Part shown: positions 2,279-21,185 of the stretch, piece by piece | How positions within the stretch are numbered: the stretch's first letter is position 1 | How the letters are laid out: every line of letters begins with the position of its first letter | IMG/VR virus record: IMGVR_UViG_3300030518_000032 | Span: 1-21,185 of that record | Strand: one strand, 5' to 3' | Source of the DNA: a virus | DNA length: 21,185 bases | Notes under the pieces: model-generated | The model's input: only the letters and a program-made list of their open reading frames with translations | What the model was told of the DNA's origin: nothing | Database searches by the model: none | Made by a program: the position numbers and the translations under genes

Positions 2279-2737
2279 ATGAAGCGACCTGCTGACGAGC
2301 AACGCCTGCTGGATTTGGGGCTGTCCGAGATAGTGTGCGACGGCGGGGTGCGCGAGTGGTTCGACCCGCACGAGCCCGACGTGGTGCAGGCACGGACCGA
2401 CGCGAATGGGCGGCTGACGCCGGGCGGTCGTCCACAGGCGATGGGACTGCGAGTCACTGCCGGAACCGTCCTCCAGGCCGCGCTCGCCCACCTCGGCGAT
2501 CGAGCTGTGACCTACGACTCTCCCGCCGGTGAGCGTTCGATGGGGCGCGCCGTAGTGGCGTTCAACGTCCTGACTGGGCACGCGCTGACCGAGGAGGACG
2601 GTTGGCTCCTGCTCGAAGTGCTCAAGATCGTGCGCGGTCGGGCCGCACCCGGGTACCACGCTGATAGCTACGAGGACCGCGTTAGCTACGCCGCGTTGGG
2701 TGCCGAGGCTCGTGCTCGTGCAGCGGGAGGCGTCTGA
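2279..2737 (+). CDS. DUF6378-like phage protein
   Basis: The 152-residue protein has a C-terminal half of the type seen in phage DUF6378 proteins: the pattern YDSPAGERSMG, then FNVLTGHALTEEDGWLLLEVLKIVR, then a HADSYEDRVSYAALGAEA ending, about residues 78-148. That family is typically a small helical protein in phage replication or nucleotide-metabolism clusters, and its biochemical role is not established as far as I know. The first 70 residues are less familiar and may be a separate small module. The start has a strong AAGGGGA leader. The stop shares one base with the thyX start (TGATG), so expression is probably coupled to thymidylate synthesis. Family call moderate, function unknown. Confidence 0.75.
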   Translation: MKRPADEQRLLDLGLSEIVCDGGVREWFDPHEPDVVQARTDANGRLTPGGRPQAMGLRVTAGTVLQAALAHLGDRAVTYDSPAGERSMGRAVVAFNVLTGHALTEEDGWLLLEVLKIVRGRAAPGYHADSYEDRVSYAALGAEARARAAGGV

Positions 2738-4533
2738 TGGCAATCACAGCAACGGTTATTCTCGACAGCATCGCCCCCGGCGCGCCCCGCCTGACCACCG
2801 TCCAGTACCGGGCGCCGCGTTCGATCCTGGCCGAGATCAACACGCACCGGACGTTTTGCTTGGCCGGGGACACCGTTCTGACTTTCGACCTTCCGGCAGG
2901 AAGCAAGGACGGTAAGTACCGTCGCGGGTTTACTATGCGGCTGGACGAGTTCGTGGACAAATGGTACAACGGCGCCGCACCCCGGCTCAACAACCCTCGG
3001 GTCAAGCTCGACTTCGGCTTGCTCGATCAGGAGAAGGCGTACTCCGCCCGTGAGCTGGCGGAAATCTTCGGGGTATCCAAAACCAACATCAACCGCGCTT
3101 GTGCCCTTGGGATACTCGCCGGGTCTAAAGAAAAGCCCTGGGGGTGGCTCATTAAGGGCCGCGACTTCATGGCATACCGTGACTCCCTTCCGGTGAGTAA
3201 TCGGCAGCCCATGCGCGAGCGCCTTGAGGCCATGCAGATACGGCAGTTCAACGAGGATACCGGCCGCATACAAACGAGCACGGTCAAGAACTGCTTCCTG
3301 TCAGGGGTCAAAGACCTCTTCGTGGTGTCCGCTGGTAAGTTTCGGGTCGTGGGCTCCGCCGATCACTTGGTGAACACGACCGAAGGCTGGCTCCGGATCG
3401 CAGACATCGCCCCAGGGGTCACAGAGGTTCTGGTTCAGCGCCGTGGTAAGTTGGGCCGCGATGAGGTAGACCCTGTTCGGCTCAAGAAGATAGACGGGCG
3501 TTGGAGGAGCACTTGGCAGAAGGGCATACGCCTGGAGTTACAAGCGAAGCACGAGGGCTGTCAGAAGTGCGCCAGTACGGAGGCGCTGGAGGTCCACCAT
3601 GTCATCCCCGTACACGTTGATCCAAGCAAAGCCTTCGAAGAATCCAACGCCCAACTGCTCTGCCGGGCCTGCCATAAAAAGGAGCACGCGGTTCAAGGTT
3701 GGCAGGGCGACACCTACCTGTACGCGGACTCAGTTGTCGTGGACTCTATCGACTACCGTGGGCAAGAGCAGACCTATGACTTGGAGATTGCTGGCAAGTA
3801 CCCAAACTTCCTGGCTAACGGAGTCGTGGTCCATAACTCACGCAACGCCCGCTCCAGCCGGGCCGTGCCGACCGATCGTCTGCTTGAGGAGGTCTGCAAC
3901 GACACGTTCATCCCGATCTGGACGCGCAACCAGCCGGGCATGCAGGGCCGCGAGGTCATTACGGGCGGCGAAGCGGATGACCTGACCGCATGGTGGCTGT
4001 CCACGCGCGACGAGGTGCTCTATGCGGCTAACCGCATGTTAAAGCATCGCCCCCATAAGCAGAACATCAACCGCCTGCTCGAACCATGGATGTGGGTGGA
4101 CGGCCTGATCAGCGCGACTGAGTGGGATAACTTCTTCGCCCTCCGCTGCCACCCGGACGCCGAGCCGCACATGCAACTGCTGGCCGAAGCGATCCGGACG
4201 GCCCTGGCGGAGAGCGCGCCGACTGAGTGCCCAGCAGGGCACTGGCGCATCCCCTATATCGGCCGTTCTGACGCGACGGAGGCGGAAGCCGTTGGGCCGA
4301 GCTACTGGCCGCTGGCCTCTGCGGCCCGTTGCGCCAGGGTGTCCTACCGGCCTTTTGACGGGGCGACCAGCGTTCATGACGACTACCTCAAGGGCCTTGC
4401 CATGTCGCAAGCTCGCCCGCTCCACGCCAGCCCGTTCGAGCACGTCGCTCGGCCGATGCTGCCCGGCGAGCGGCAACTGGGGAACCTGATTGGCTGGCGG
4501 CAGTACCGGCACGAGTTGGAGGGCGCGGTATGA
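2737..4533 (+). CDS. thyX: Flavin-dependent thymidylate synthase ThyX, precursor with intein
   Basis: ThyX makes dTMP from dUMP with methylene-tetrahydrofolate, FAD and NADPH. The 598-residue precursor consists of extein residues 1-40, an intein at 41-367, and extein 368-598, so the spliced enzyme would be 271 residues. Joining the exteins restores THRTF-SRNARSSR, which matches the ThyX signature RHRxxSxNxxSxR except that the first Arg is Thr, a change I recall in other phage ThyX proteins. The intein sits immediately before the conserved Ser of the motif. The C-extein keeps further phage-ThyX features: WDNFFALRCHPDAEPHMQ, CARVSY, HASPFEH and GWRQYRHE. The gene follows the DUF6378-like gene with a 1-base overlap and a GGGAGG leader, and works with the dCMP deaminase encoded at 6920. 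Activity depends on splicing, because the motif is broken without it. Confidence 0.92.
   Translation: MAITATVILDSIAPGAPRLTTVQYRAPRSILAEINTHRTFCLAGDTVLTFDLPAGSKDGKYRRGFTMRLDEFVDKWYNGAAPRLNNPRVKLDFGLLDQEKAYSARELAEIFGVSKTNINRACALGILAGSKEKPWGWLIKGRDFMAYRDSLPVSNRQPMRERLEAMQIRQFNEDTGRIQTSTVKNCFLSGVKDLFVVSAGKFRVVGSADHLVNTTEGWLRIADIAPGVTEVLVQRRGKLGRDEVDPVRLKKIDGRWRSTWQKGIRLELQAKHEGCQKCASTEALEVHHVIPVHVDPSKAFEESNAQLLCRACHKKEHAVQGWQGDTYLYADSVVVDSIDYRGQEQTYDLEIAGKYPNFLANGVVVHNSRNARSSRAVPTDRLLEEVCNDTFIPIWTRNQPGMQGREVITGGEADDLTAWWLSTRDEVLYAANRMLKHRPHKQNINRLLEPWMWVDGLISATEWDNFFALRCHPDAEPHMQLLAEAIRTALAESAPTECPAGHWRIPYIGRSDATEAEAVGPSYWPLASAARCARVSYRPFDGATSVHDDYLKGLAMSQARPLHASPFEHVARPMLPGERQLGNLIGWRQYRHELEGAV
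2857..3837 (+). mobile_element. ThyX intein with helix-turn-helix and HNH homing endonuclease domains
   Basis: The 327-residue insertion begins at precursor Cys41 (CLAGDTVLTF, splicing block A) and ends at His366-Asn367 (NFLANGVVVHN, block G), followed by Ser368 as the +1 nucleophile. Block B is around GSADHLVNTTEGW with His210. Block F is around QTYDLEIAG (345-353). An HNH endonuclease lies between B and F at about 271-317: CQKC (Cys275, Cys278), VHH (His287, His288), Asn304, and CRACHKKEH (Cys309, Cys312, His317). Between blocks A and B, at about residues 101-150, is a MerR/excisionase-like helix-turn-helix (SARELAEIFGVSKTNINRA, then a basic wing and FMAYRDSLP). All residues needed for protein splicing appear intact, so the intein is probably active. 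The HNH domain would cut intein-free thyX alleles to promote homing. The boundaries are fixed by the restored ThyX motif. Confidence 0.93.
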
Positions 4534-7351: not shown

Positions 7352-7491
7352 TCTTCGGTTACGCTTGGAGCTTCCTCGGGTCCTACTGGTGTATGGGGTA
7401 CTGGTACGGGCTCGATTCCTGCGCCGGCAGGAGCGATCGGGAGCGCGCTGTCCTGTGCATCACGGGTAACCTGGACTCGGGGCTCCTATGA
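7348..7491 (+). CDS. Tiny aromatic-rich unknown protein (47 aa)
   Basis: The frame runs from ATG 7348, overlapping the deaminase stop, to TGA 7489-7491, overlapping the polymerase start. The 47-residue peptide opens with a hydrophobic, Trp/Tyr/Gly-rich stretch (MIFGYAWSFLGSYWCMGYWY) that could lie in a membrane, followed by a short polar tail. A GGGGGTGG leader lies 8-15 bases upstream. No family is recognised. ATGA overlap on both sides is the main support. Confidence 0.55.
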   Translation: MIFGYAWSFLGSYWCMGYWYGLDSCAGRSDRERAVLCITGNLDSGLL

Positions 7492-9959
7492 CCCTTTACG
7501 GCGCTCAACGCCCCGCCGACATGGGCGTCTCGACCGTTCTGGCCTGCATGGACTTCGAGACCTACTCCCCCGCCGGCTACGTCTGGGACGAGAGCGCCGG
7601 CAAGTGGCGCGGGCCTCCCAACGCCAGCCAGGGGCGCAAGGGCCTCTCGGTAGTGGGAGCGGCCGTCTATGCCGAGCGTCCAGAGACCGAGGTGCTGTCG
7701 CTCGCCTACGACCTCCACGACGGCGCAGGCCCCCGTACATGGCGGCCCGGCCAGCCTAACCCGCAGCCGTTGTTCGACCACCTGGCCGCCGGGCGGCTGG
7801 TCGAGGCGTGGAACGCGCCCTTCGAAATTTGGATTTGGGGTCGGGTCTGCACGAGGCTCTATGGTTGGCCTGAGCTACCTGTTCGGCAGGTGCGCTGCAC
7901 GATGGCCAAGGCCCGCGCCGCCGGGTACCCTGGCAGCCTGGACGCGGCAGGCGAAGCGATGCAGCTCACGCTCCGCAAGGATAAGGACGGCAAGCGACTG
8001 CTGGACAAGTTCAGCGTCCCACGGAATCCAACCAAGGCCGACCCGCGCCGCCGCATCCGGCCCGAGGATGACCCGGAGGACTTCGCCCGGCTGGTCTCCT
8101 ACAACATCCGGGATATTGAAACGGAGGCCGAGGCGAGCCACCGGCTGCCCGACTTGTCCGATCGGGAGCAAGAAGTCTGGTACCTCGATCACGATATCAA
8201 CAGCCGTGGCATCGCGATCGATCAGGACGGCATGGCGGATTGCATTGCCGTGATCGAGCAGGCGTTCGAACGGTATAACGGCGAGCTGCAAGCGCTTGCC
8301 GGCTGCAACGCCTCCGAGACGGCACGGTTGCGTCTCTGGCTGCTTTCGTGCGGCGTCGACATGGAGTCCCTGGACGAGGAGCACGTTGAGAATACGCTCG
8401 CGGCGATGGGGCGGCCCGAATGGGTGCGGGAGCGGGTCGAGGAATTGGGAGAGCCCGAGTACCGGCGGCGGACATACGAAGCGTGGGCGGCGTCCGAGAA
8501 CCGCCTGAACGCAGTCGAGAAGCCCGATACCGCCCTTCGGAACGTCACCAAGGAAGCGGTCGCCCGCCTCGTTGCGGTCAATCTCGATCCGACAGTGCCA
8601 CCCGACGGCCTCGACGCGCGTCTGGCCACCACCGCACCCAACCTCCACGACCACATCGTCATGCGCCTGGGCGATGCCCGCCGCGCCCTCGAACTGCGGG
8701 CGCTGATCGGGTCGGCCAGCGTCAAGAAGCTTTACGCGATTCGGAACATGCTGGCCGCCGACGGCCGGCTGCACGACCTGTTCACCTACCACGGCGCCCG
8801 CACGGGGCGTTGGACCGGAGGCGGCCCGCAGCCTACCAATCTGCCCACCTCGGGGCCGCCGGTCGTGCGGTGTGGATGCGGGCGGCATTACGCGGTGGGA
8901 CTGACGGTGTGCCCGTGGTGCGGCTCGACGGCGGCGGCCTACGCGACCGACTGGTGCGCCGCCGCCGCTCAGGATGCGCTGGACGCCATTGCGACGCGCT
9001 GCCTGGACGTGGTGGAGGCCATCTTCGGAGACGCCCTGCACGCCGTCGCAGGGTGCCTGAGAGGGCTGTTCGTCGCGGCGCTCGGTCACGAGCTGGTCAG
9101 CTCGGACTACAGCGCGATCGAGGCGGTGGGGCTGGCGGAACTGGCCGGCGAGGAATGGCGGCGGGAGGTGTTCCGAACGCACGGTAAGATTTACGAGATG
9201 TCGGCCGCGAAGATATCGGGCGTGCCATTCGAGACCTTCATGTCGCATCGCAAGGAGACCGGCCAGCACCATCCGCTCCGGAAGAGGCTCGGAAAAGTTG
9301 CAGAACTCGCCTCAGGCTATCAGGGTTGGATCGGCGCCTGGAAGGCGTTCGGTGCTGACGAGCACATGGACGACGAGGAGATAAAGGCCGCCATCCTGGC
9401 GTGGCGGGCCGCCTCCCCCGCCGTCGTTGCGCTGTGGGGCGGGCAGGTGCCGCAGCTCCACGGCCTCGAAGGCATGGCGATCCTGGCCGTGCAGAACCCC
9501 GAGCGGTGGACACAGTACCGGGGCATCTACTTCATCCGTCATGGCGATGCGCTGTTCATGCGCCTGCCGTCTGGCCGGTTCCTGACGTACCGGCACCCCG
9601 AGCTGCACCCGTCCGAGAAGCGCCCCGGTCAACTCCAGCTCAGTTACATGACCCACAACTCGAACCCAAAGATGGGTCCGATGGGGTGGCAACGAATGGG
9701 CACCTACGGCGGCCGACTGACCGAGAACCTCGATCAAGCGGCCTGCCGGGACGTGTTCGTCAACGGCATGCTGGCGGTCGCCGCCGCAGGCTACCGGCCG
9801 GTCCAGCACGTCTATGACGAGATCGCCGCAGAGGTGCCCATCGGCTGGGGCTCGGTCGAGGAGTTCGAGCGCTTGATCTCCCAGACCGAGCCCTGGTCGG
9901 CGGAGTGGCCGGTCAGAGCGTCGGGAGGCTGGCGGGGCCGGCGGTACCGAAAGGATTAA
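7488..9959 (+). CDS. Family A (Pol I-like) phage DNA polymerase with 3'-5' exonuclease domain
   Basis: This 823-residue replicative polymerase has an N-terminal DnaQ-like exonuclease domain: DFETYS with Asp22 and Glu24; WNAPFE at 108-113; YNIRD with Tyr205 and Asp209. The polymerase domain follows. RTGRWTGGGPQPTNLP at about 438-453 is the primer/template motif. Motif A is SSDYSAIEA with Asp540. Motif B is KRLGKVAELASGYQG at about 599-613 (Lys603, Tyr611). Motif C is QHVYDEI with Asp777 and Glu778. Two oddities: motif C has Tyr776 where Pol I enzymes have His, and Exo II has Glu113 where Asp is usual, though I recall phage relatives with Glu. A four-Cys module (Cys462, 464, 475, 478; RCGCG and CPWCG) is inserted just after the primer/template motif and probably binds zinc. 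This polymerase type is commonly linked to DUF2800 and DUF2815 genes, as here. It starts by ATGA overlap and ends the plus-strand operon. Confidence 0.93.
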   Translation: MTLYGAQRPADMGVSTVLACMDFETYSPAGYVWDESAGKWRGPPNASQGRKGLSVVGAAVYAERPETEVLSLAYDLHDGAGPRTWRPGQPNPQPLFDHLAAGRLVEAWNAPFEIWIWGRVCTRLYGWPELPVRQVRCTMAKARAAGYPGSLDAAGEAMQLTLRKDKDGKRLLDKFSVPRNPTKADPRRRIRPEDDPEDFARLVSYNIRDIETEAEASHRLPDLSDREQEVWYLDHDINSRGIAIDQDGMADCIAVIEQAFERYNGELQALAGCNASETARLRLWLLSCGVDMESLDEEHVENTLAAMGRPEWVRERVEELGEPEYRRRTYEAWAASENRLNAVEKPDTALRNVTKEAVARLVAVNLDPTVPPDGLDARLATTAPNLHDHIVMRLGDARRALELRALIGSASVKKLYAIRNMLAADGRLHDLFTYHGARTGRWTGGGPQPTNLPTSGPPVVRCGCGRHYAVGLTVCPWCGSTAAAYATDWCAAAAQDALDAIATRCLDVVEAIFGDALHAVAGCLRGLFVAALGHELVSSDYSAIEAVGLAELAGEEWRREVFRTHGKIYEMSAAKISGVPFETFMSHRKETGQHHPLRKRLGKVAELASGYQGWIGAWKAFGADEHMDDEEIKAAILAWRAASPAVVALWGGQVPQLHGLEGMAILAVQNPERWTQYRGIYFIRHGDALFMRLPSGRFLTYRHPELHPSEKRPGQLQLSYMTHNSNPKMGPMGWQRMGTYGGRLTENLDQAACRDVFVNGMLAVAAAGYRPVQHVYDEIAAEVPIGWGSVEEFERLISQTEPWSAEWPVRASGGWRGRRYRKD

Positions 9960-20500: not shown

Positions 20501-21185
20501 TATCCAGTTCGGCGAGAGCCTGCTTATACTGCTTCTGGGCGGCGTACAGGGCGTCGTGCTTCATACGGAGAGCTTCAAGCTCGGCAGCGGCGCCCTTACC
20601 TGCGCGCGAAGCAAGCTCCTCTTGTGCCCCGTCCTGCTCCTGGAGGAGCTTACCCCACATGGCCTCGTACTCGGCCACCACCTCCTGGGACAGTGGTCCC
20701 CAATACTGGACTCCCAAAGCGGCCTCGACCGCCAAGTGGGCTTTGCCGGCGGCATTCGTGGCCGCCACGTCCATCTGGGTGTCAACGGCCTTCCAGAAGC
20801 TGGTGTAGTCGGCCACCACCTCCTGGGACAGTGGTCCCAAGTACTGGACTCCCAAAGCGGCCTCGACCGCCAAGTGGGCTTTGCCTGCGGCATTCGTGGC
20901 CGCCACGTCCATCTGGGTGTCAACGGCCTTCCAGAAGCTGGTGTAGTCAGCCACCACCTCCTGGGACAGCGGTCCCCAGTACTGGACTCCCAGGGCGGCC
21001 TCGACCGCCAAATGTGCTTTGCCTGCGGCATTCGTGGCCGCCACGTCCATCTGGGTGTCAACGGCCTTCCAGAAGCTGGTGTAGTCAGCCACCACCTCCT
21101 GGGACAGTGGTCCCCAATACTGGACTCCCAAAGCGGCCTCGACCGCCAAGTGGGCTTTGCCGGCGGCATTCGTGGCCGCCACGTC
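14583..21185 (-). CDS. Tape measure protein with embedded lysozyme/transglycosylase-like domain (5' end outside window)
   Basis: The minus-strand frame is open from the window edge to TGA at 14585-14583, at least 2200 residues; residue numbers below count from position 21182, which is not the true start. The protein sets tail length and helps DNA entry. In order it shows: 46-residue tandem repeats (1-170); a charged helical part; a TMP_2-like region with a hydrophobic segment LLTTVLSPIVLVTAAVVAMG (320-347); long Ala/Gln-rich helices; a soluble lytic transglycosylase/lysozyme-like domain near 1113-1200 with Glu1120 (IAKVESD), TWQINSAYP and a GYNTGD segment; a Gly-rich GGMLGGML segment (about 1395-1425) that may insert in membranes; coiled-coil Gln/Ala repeats; and a C-terminal AWVGEKGPEIVQF signature flanked by two GYATGT motifs. 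At about 1.5 angstroms per residue it implies a tail well over 300 nm long. The stop overlaps the tail-tip gene. Confidence 0.93.
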   Translation of the reverse strand, partial: DVAATNAAGKAHLAVEAALGVQYWGPLSQEVVADYTSFWKAVDTQMDVAATNAAGKAHLAVEAALGVQYWGPLSQEVVADYTSFWKAVDTQMDVAATNAAGKAHLAVEAALGVQYLGPLSQEVVADYTSFWKAVDTQMDVAATNAAGKAHLAVEAALGVQYWGPLSQEVVAEYEAMWGKLLQEQDGAQEELASRAGKGAAAELEALRMKHDALYAAQKQYKQALAELDTLRAQPDADPVALAAREKQLALGFEETTAGIKRNQEATKSLNLSRNQMLELNAAGVNSFQALMAGMNVQQVAMMEGAQVIGAFAQGEKGFAGLLTTVLSPIVLVTAAVVAMGAAFAYAATSGASQRKDLENSLVALGSSKTAWQEWASSVSAAKQAGVSSSDALSVSAGLGGMGAPDGVAQRATQLIRPFAQGFTDSDKDAAEKQLIDIYSNPVQAMEKYRQQIGLVSQAEAEHIRWLELSGDRVGAVTALYDALSKRLQGVQDNSSLLTKSIEGWSLAFDRLGTSVDKALHPEVYKSTAELSAQPEKLKSDTNPRTEQSRGNTASSIQEELSKRTAAEAAGKSTQENILAARGDEVVQSLNLQSTAAIKYYENLKLVNASFKDMTGAQAMQALSALKEQFESAVNPAKAFAEQSARALSVAKLQPGYQQTLETQLQVLDQKYAGRSNIPDDELNNAKKGAGDVTAAQAEAAHIQAQNALEDAQRLAVARASLNAASMVAAEGENAYQDAKRRGLSDGVAQHAQDDALAKGRLDLATATTTTVATMGLETQGLAAEAQAYGVSMAAVHGAQLEHQIMLEQLKADPAQRNAIRQAMLAQDAAQTQLNASMRAADVRGQIADQERLAAGWAKGAEGARQAALANAAVAEIQQQHAENNPAAIAQITQGVSDRDTATRQAQFAQMGAEQQQANVLALAEYQTLGMSNAERAKALAILQTTNDLQARGADLAAAGTKEYIAQVGAMAEYKAKLAEVQQAAQGFADTIGNALGESLTNPAAKFSDTWNTALKDIQKQVTEMTVVKPFKDWMTGGLTQLMSGEPPKGSGTPVASANDLGAPVRSAFDGTKPLPVEVTNWTMPGTPTASAGTPEAAGLTNPSNGGSSNANDVLYAIAKVESDATLNPRDNQNRNGTHDIGTWQINSAYPYGKSPEQLKDVSQNLDAALQNLNETAGRAKSVDTLLNGYNTGDASQVSNPAYVASVRGNLGQYDAALAAGDPVAVAIRDSQTTDSFRQFSGALTELSGGAMAAARGADAMAQGGAQAGQGAAQLLSGVGSLLSGVVGGTGVSGGGQVITVGGQAYAPTSLGGLDSGLGSSIFGEGYTGLGSYLFGNTADAVDANGALELGGLIGSGGGGAGLLGGTMSNSVMPGIGSLFTAGTDFANGNIGGGAGTLGGAALGTAILPGIGTAIGGMLGGMLGGMFGSSAPSDGPVGGARLALGDNGLFGVGLAGGDNGFDPTQLKGQVSQLAQQLNQTVALGNLQVDQGALVAMGQKADIQNAGNSKANNAPTGQTADQVINNMVGGGVFGATGAVGTSLDYLQQQSLNGNDVTLQQFQTAVQFSAALQTATDAANNFGTGLKGATAAAQNTADANNANIGVQGSTAKENGVFGQWQSTEQLSLQNQITTATDATPTTSLSKNLAALQGQIAGANDNAAAAGVTLDQGAINAQLVTWLQSQITQALGGTDAAASQVQALSAEHAANVNVLTANGASTGSADQLLTEELTKLLSGMDSANASAFAAQQGGDVAATWAGMAQGPSSYAIRQGQAQQTITATDLGTNSVAAVQQAQQVANMQTALKQAQELNAATDDYTRSLIVATQAQENQATAVQQAYQLQQAQNQQQNTDAGLQIQGASANATMVGLSSGTNSIAAIEAQQQTATMQLQLQTQEALQSATDDATQALTAQVGAEQTAALAAQQAQQLADTIQAQKKANSDIEARDQIALQNNWKATLLQLQANQDQELYNAKEQGGIDINELVETQQDELTEIYTNAGQTIQDFFDHLSVSDATTGSDVTHLAAQQALTDAAVSKAYNTGDISSAIASINSLLSMTGTLYSTGSEVYADAVAKESSDLKALGHALGIPGYATGTTGAAPGLAWVGEKGPEIVQFRGGETVYNAEQSRAMFGPVTRGYATGTAAGNDNSDVVARLDAVICNQSLQITALSERINEVTGALKEITSETRRDRAARRVRGST
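15313..15840 (-). repeat. Diverged 88-residue repeat pair in the tape measure C-terminal coil
   Basis: Two consecutive segments of 88 codons align without gaps over their first 65 or so residues. One begins LGTNSVAAVQQAQQ (15840 downward) and the other SGTNSIAAIEAQQQ (15576 downward). Both keep MQ at positions 18-19, ATDD at 31-34 and a QQA-QL pattern near 53-58. The DNA has drifted, though the 13-base core CTGTTGGTCCC-like block is still shared. This is an old internal duplication of a coiled-coil block. Confidence 0.75.
20674..21185 (-). repeat. 138-bp tandem repeats in the tape measure gene
   Basis: Units begin at 20674, 20812, 20950 and 21088, exactly 138 bases apart; the last is cut by the window edge. 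Each encodes 46 residues (AATNAAGKAHLAV...GPLSQEVVADYTSFWKAVDTQMDV), and the copies differ by only a few bases. The second unit from the gene-internal side changes YWGP to YLGP. The innermost homology continues into a diverged AEYEAMWGKLL segment. Near-identity at the DNA level, including third codon positions, indicates recent duplication or ongoing exchange. The unit length is a multiple of three, so copy number can change with the frame intact. Confidence 0.97.

Follow-up and report, generated by a model that had tools for sequence, protein, structure and literature searches.

A class 1 intein very probably occupies the TdS-a site in a phage gene for a rearranged ThyX protein, and this intein is predicted to splice itself out and to home with the help of an HNH and a helix-turn-helix (HTH) module. 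The gene was found on the plus strand of a window of 21,185 nucleotides, which is the whole stretch of DNA analysed here (IMG/VR record IMGVR_UViG_3300030518_000032). It extends from position 2737 to 4533 and encodes a precursor of 598 amino acids, with a start codon that overlaps the stop codon of the upstream gene (TGATG). The precursor consists of an N-extein of 40 residues ending with NTHRTF (2737-2856), an intein of 327 residues from Cys1 to Asn327 (precursor residues 41-367; 2857-3837) and a C-extein of 231 residues that starts with Ser+1 in SRNARSSRA (3838-4533). The GC content of the intein is 58.7%, compared to 65-67% in its exteins. A first-pass annotation of this DNA had placed an intein at 2857-3837, between Phe40 and the Ser of the H-R-x-x-S-x-N motif. 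The insertion position is correct, and the coordinates and residues are borne out by the fold, the splice residues and the seamless spliced product. The architecture of the intein, its splice residues, its fold, the junction, the HNH and HTH modules and the spread of the element were all read from sequence or from structural models.

The residues for protein splicing were located in the expected blocks. Cys1 is found in block A (CLAGDTVL, 2857-2880), His170 in the S-A-D-H of block B (3355-3366), and the blocks F and G (3772-3837) end with His326-Asn327. With S+1 in the C-extein, this confirms the earlier statement that Cys1, the block B His, the terminal His-Asn and the +1 Ser are all there. 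The splice residues are invariant across five divergent relatives of the same intein sub-family with 43-50% identity. A Pfam search with the precursor matched HNH (1.7e-10) and Intein_splicing (2.4e-5, under the curated cutoff), the NCBIfam model intein_Cterm was matched above its cutoff, and PHROG matches likewise support an intein. The AlphaFold2 (AF2) model of the insert has a pLDDT of 82 and was superimposed on the NpuDnaB intein 4o1r with a Z of 20.9 and an rmsd of 1.2 Å over 138 residues, the match spanning the model residues 1-327. When the intein was removed exactly, a protein of 271 residues was obtained, and in its alignment to 10 intein-free phage ThyX proteins the junction is free of gaps. 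This comparison had been proposed in the first-pass annotation, and the spliced form is continuous across the junction in all 10 relatives. An ordinary domain insertion in ThyX was also considered. It is ruled out by the end-to-end Hint fold, the splice residues and the intein-free relatives with a continuous motif, and we regard it as extremely improbable. From sequence and model the insert is a class 1 intein, for which splicing is predicted.

In the translated precursor, Cys1 would attack the Phe40-Cys1 bond. The ester would then pass to Ser+1, Asn327 would cyclise, and the joining of Phe40 to Ser would rebuild the H-R-x-x-S-x-N-x-x-S-x-R motif. Two residues deviate from the usual pattern. 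The block F His is replaced by Pro316 and the block B Thr by Ser167, and both replacements occur in 5 of 5 sub-family members. The His in block F and the Thr in block B are usual, not essential, for class 1 inteins. Having Pro316 and Ser167 throughout the sub-family could slow splicing, and since the insertion splits a functional motif, impaired or conditional splicing might regulate ThyX like a switch in the course of infection. We consider this very unlikely, since an adapted active site would account equally well for the conservation over five lineages and the present data give no sign of conditional splicing. The possible point of control raised in the first-pass annotation is neither backed nor contradicted by these data. 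That Pro316 and Ser167 are common to all five members fits an intein that is adapted rather than decayed. These two replacements and the HNH and HTH domains described next go beyond the first-pass annotation.

The predicted self-splicing intein contains two additional modules. An HNH endonuclease domain with CxxC...CxxC (3559-3690) lies between the blocks B and F and keeps the arrangement CxxC...HH...N...CxxCH with both cysteine pairs of the zinc site. The second module is set into the N-terminal half of the Hint domain between the blocks A and B, at about residues 48-118 of the intein (2998-3210, limits approximate). In the AF2 model it shows a helix at 64-71, a helix at 75-83, strands at 90-92 and 96-100 and a helix at 101-110; by this model, the order of its elements is that of a winged HTH. 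A match to HTH_17, which lies at 3040-3183 in the window, was obtained at the same place in four of the five sub-family inteins, every match being under the Pfam cutoff. Searching the PDB sequences with the HTH stretch gave nothing significant. We infer that the winged HTH binds DNA. The freed intein would act as a homing endonuclease whose HNH domain cuts intein-free thyX alleles, with the winged HTH aiding the reading of the target DNA, and the repair of the cut gene would copy the intein in.

The sub-family consists of five lineages: the window, L024, L129, L131 and Virus Rctr197k, which have the host family and the insertion residue in common. Single-sequence scans matched no contigs other than those of the window's own phage population, with an identity of 99.98% or higher, and the plasmid collection searched contained no match. 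In the intein tree, the five inteins form one clade (support 99/98) and within it L129 and L131 are grouped (95/91). The groups constrained on the extein tree were chosen from the intein data and not from the extein tree itself. Holding the five carriers together on the extein tree was rejected with an AU p of 6e-5 and grouping L129 with L131 with a p of 1e-33, with caution due to the long branches of the window and L129. Since the inteins form one clade and the exteins are scattered, the sequences give good support to horizontal movement of the intein between the thyX genes of phages, as mobility in the past. The earlier suggestion that the intein homes into a conserved site is thus supported by the HNH domain and by the conflict between the intein and extein trees, with cleavage of the target as the predicted step.

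Endonuclease decay is common among inteins, and the related L131 intein has lost one of the two cysteine pairs, the second, from its HNH site. Accordingly, the intein might still splice while homing is lost, with the HNH and HTH modules as relics and inheritance along with the phage. This is unlikely in our view, because the HNH of the window keeps its motif residues and the two trees strongly disagree, although the latter speaks for past and not for present mobility. A homing intein with working modules is the reading that we prefer.

The position between the blocks A and B was compared among the ThyX inteins. The Rctr197k intein is without the HTH module, and in the mycobacteriophage ThyX inteins the slot is empty. 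In the Streptomyces ThyX inteins and in L026 it is occupied by an AP2-like module (best E 3.1e-5, under the cutoff). With a winged HTH, an AP2-like module or nothing at this place, the slot appears, from these sequences, to take different DNA-binding modules. Beyond the slot, a NUMOD4 together with a different HNH type is present in L032, and an endonuclease is missing from L033. The insertion in vir335 (and L030), L026 and L033 lies two residues downstream of the site in the window. That one ThyX site holds different modules in one slot makes it testable whether a module swap changes the target choice of an HNH intein.

Several other inserts were seen in the course of this comparison. In the mycobacteriophage-like ThyX frame at L027:1609-4083, the known intein seems to be accompanied by a second one, a longer Hint-like insert upstream that sits inside the HGxPFEH segment. 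A ribonucleotide reductase-like frame at L031:1954-6276 apparently has three intein-like inserts. At L045 (from 1875), L053 (from 1815) and L056 (from 1818), an in-frame insertion of about 20 residues, which has no intein motifs, lies between THR and SRN at or adjoining the intein site.

The host protein is a ThyX by sequence homology, and Pfam places the intein domains within a ThyX-like protein. The usual order in a classical ThyX is the HxSxxEH segment first and the RHRxxSxNExSxRY motif after it. In the host this order is reversed and the HxSPxEH segment is found at the C-terminus, after the motif. In the window, the relocated segment SAARCARVSY...HASPFEH, which in classical ThyX is N-terminal of the RHR motif, is encoded at 4318-4443 (limits approximate). 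A classical ThyX profile was built from 14 sequences and run on 66 phage proteins. In about 45 of the 66, it matched in two swapped pieces: the profile positions ~68-224 fell on the residues ~20-173 and the positions ~30-67 on the residues ~205-245, the second piece reaching an E below 0.01 in 13 of these ~45 and being weak alone in the rest. Similarly, the NCBI thyX model matched with its positions 60-206 to the residues 20-170 of L057, an intein-free relative, and with its positions 17-58 to the residues 220-262 of L093 (weak, E 0.009).

Compared with ThyX and PolB chains by sequential aligners, the model of the L057 protein (pLDDT 95) reached a Z of up to 11.8, the matches spanning the model residues 1-171. 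Since residue 1 of the model already falls on the start of the solved ThyX chains, the first strand seems to be N-terminal still. With the first strand retained, the rearrangement in the model looks like the relocation of a single segment and not like a plain circular permutation. Among 50,697 phage records, 1004 contain 80% or more of the L057 protein in the rearranged order. One record of the rearranged ThyX-like family (window 4318-4443; L057:1881-2693; ~60 more loci) is annotated as N4 gp30-like. The C-extein gave nothing significant against the PDB sequences. We found no published description of a rearranged ThyX chain, which, with incomplete literature coverage, is weak evidence for novelty.

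The motif residues were numbered according to T. maritima ThyX (PMC11940539; PMC8316439), the numbering being transferred by the motif spacing. The first-pass annotation had noted that the conserved Ser of the ThyX motif doubles as the +1 splicing residue. This is supported, and it is the motif Ser, but it corresponds to position 83 and not to the functional S88, and a few relatives have a Gly instead. Gly is found at +1 in L106, L107 and L089 (THRVF followed by GRN), precluding intein splicing there, and the intein carrier L131 has Ser. The rearranged family keeps H79, R80, N85, S88 and R90. R78 is changed to Thr in 63 of 64 proteins, E86 to Ala or Ser in 62 of 64 and Y91 to Ala in all 64; a Y91A substitution slows a key step (PMC8316439). 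It had also been claimed that dTMP synthesis by the phage depends on prior splicing. The part that stands is that splicing must rebuild the motif. The remainder is less secure, because the family is without R78, E86 and Y91 and another thymidylate synthase may be encoded beyond the 21-kb record. We infer that the enzyme needs splicing, and with these residues gone, synthesis of dTMP after splicing is plausible rather than established.

A wider reading is possible, though we hold it tentatively and do not quite lean towards it. The rearranged phage family, with about 1000 records and with R78, E86 and Y91 gone, may modify dUMP differently; one intein sub-family would have spread through it, and same-site inteins with a winged HTH or an AP2-like module in one slot would lie on both sides of the rearrangement. 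About 1000 phage records of a rearranged ThyX without presumed catalytic residues make the minimal set for flavin-dependent thymidylate synthesis directly testable.

Inteins at the TdS-a site of ThyX and their horizontal transfer have already been published for mycobacteriophages and Streptomyces (PMC5050341). The TdS-a inteins of Gizmo/ZygoTaiga and Streptomyces resemble that of the window in the site, the splice residues, the HNH and the evidence for horizontal transfer. However, they have a classical ThyX host, an empty or AP2-like slot and a block F His that is kept, and they are only ~25-35% identical to the intein of the window. The ThyX intein of Virus Rctr197k (KX853510) is closer, with the same site, a rearranged host, an HNH, the block F Pro and ~49% identity, but lacks the HTH module and is annotated solely as a putative HNH endonuclease. 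The Ter ThyX intein likewise lies in ThyX but in a different organism, and was compared by its published description; a mini-intein derived from it undergoes almost complete splicing in E. coli (PMC3620165). A modular layout of Hint, endonuclease and DNA-binding parts is also known from TliVMA and PI-TkoII, both with an HTH accessory domain, and from PI-SceI with a DNA recognition region in the Hint domain (PMC8966425). These are archaeal or yeast inteins with LAGLIDADG endonucleases, whereas the window has an HNH and a winged HTH between the blocks A and B. Within the literature covered, four things appear to be new: a sub-family of HNH inteins whose Hint domain contains a winged HTH, the varied modules in the slot, the spread through a rearranged ThyX and the rearrangement itself.

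Two further features were observed elsewhere in the window. At 20529-21185, a tandem repeat with a spacing of 138 bases and copies up to 95% identical, which may be real or an assembly artefact, lies in a long ORF of 2199 aa on the minus strand, where the record ends. At 7488-9956, a Family A DNA polymerase with a zinc-ribbon-like CxC...CPWC stretch is encoded that shares ~40-48% identity with its counterparts in cultured phages of Shewanella, Stenotrophomonas, Vibrio and others.
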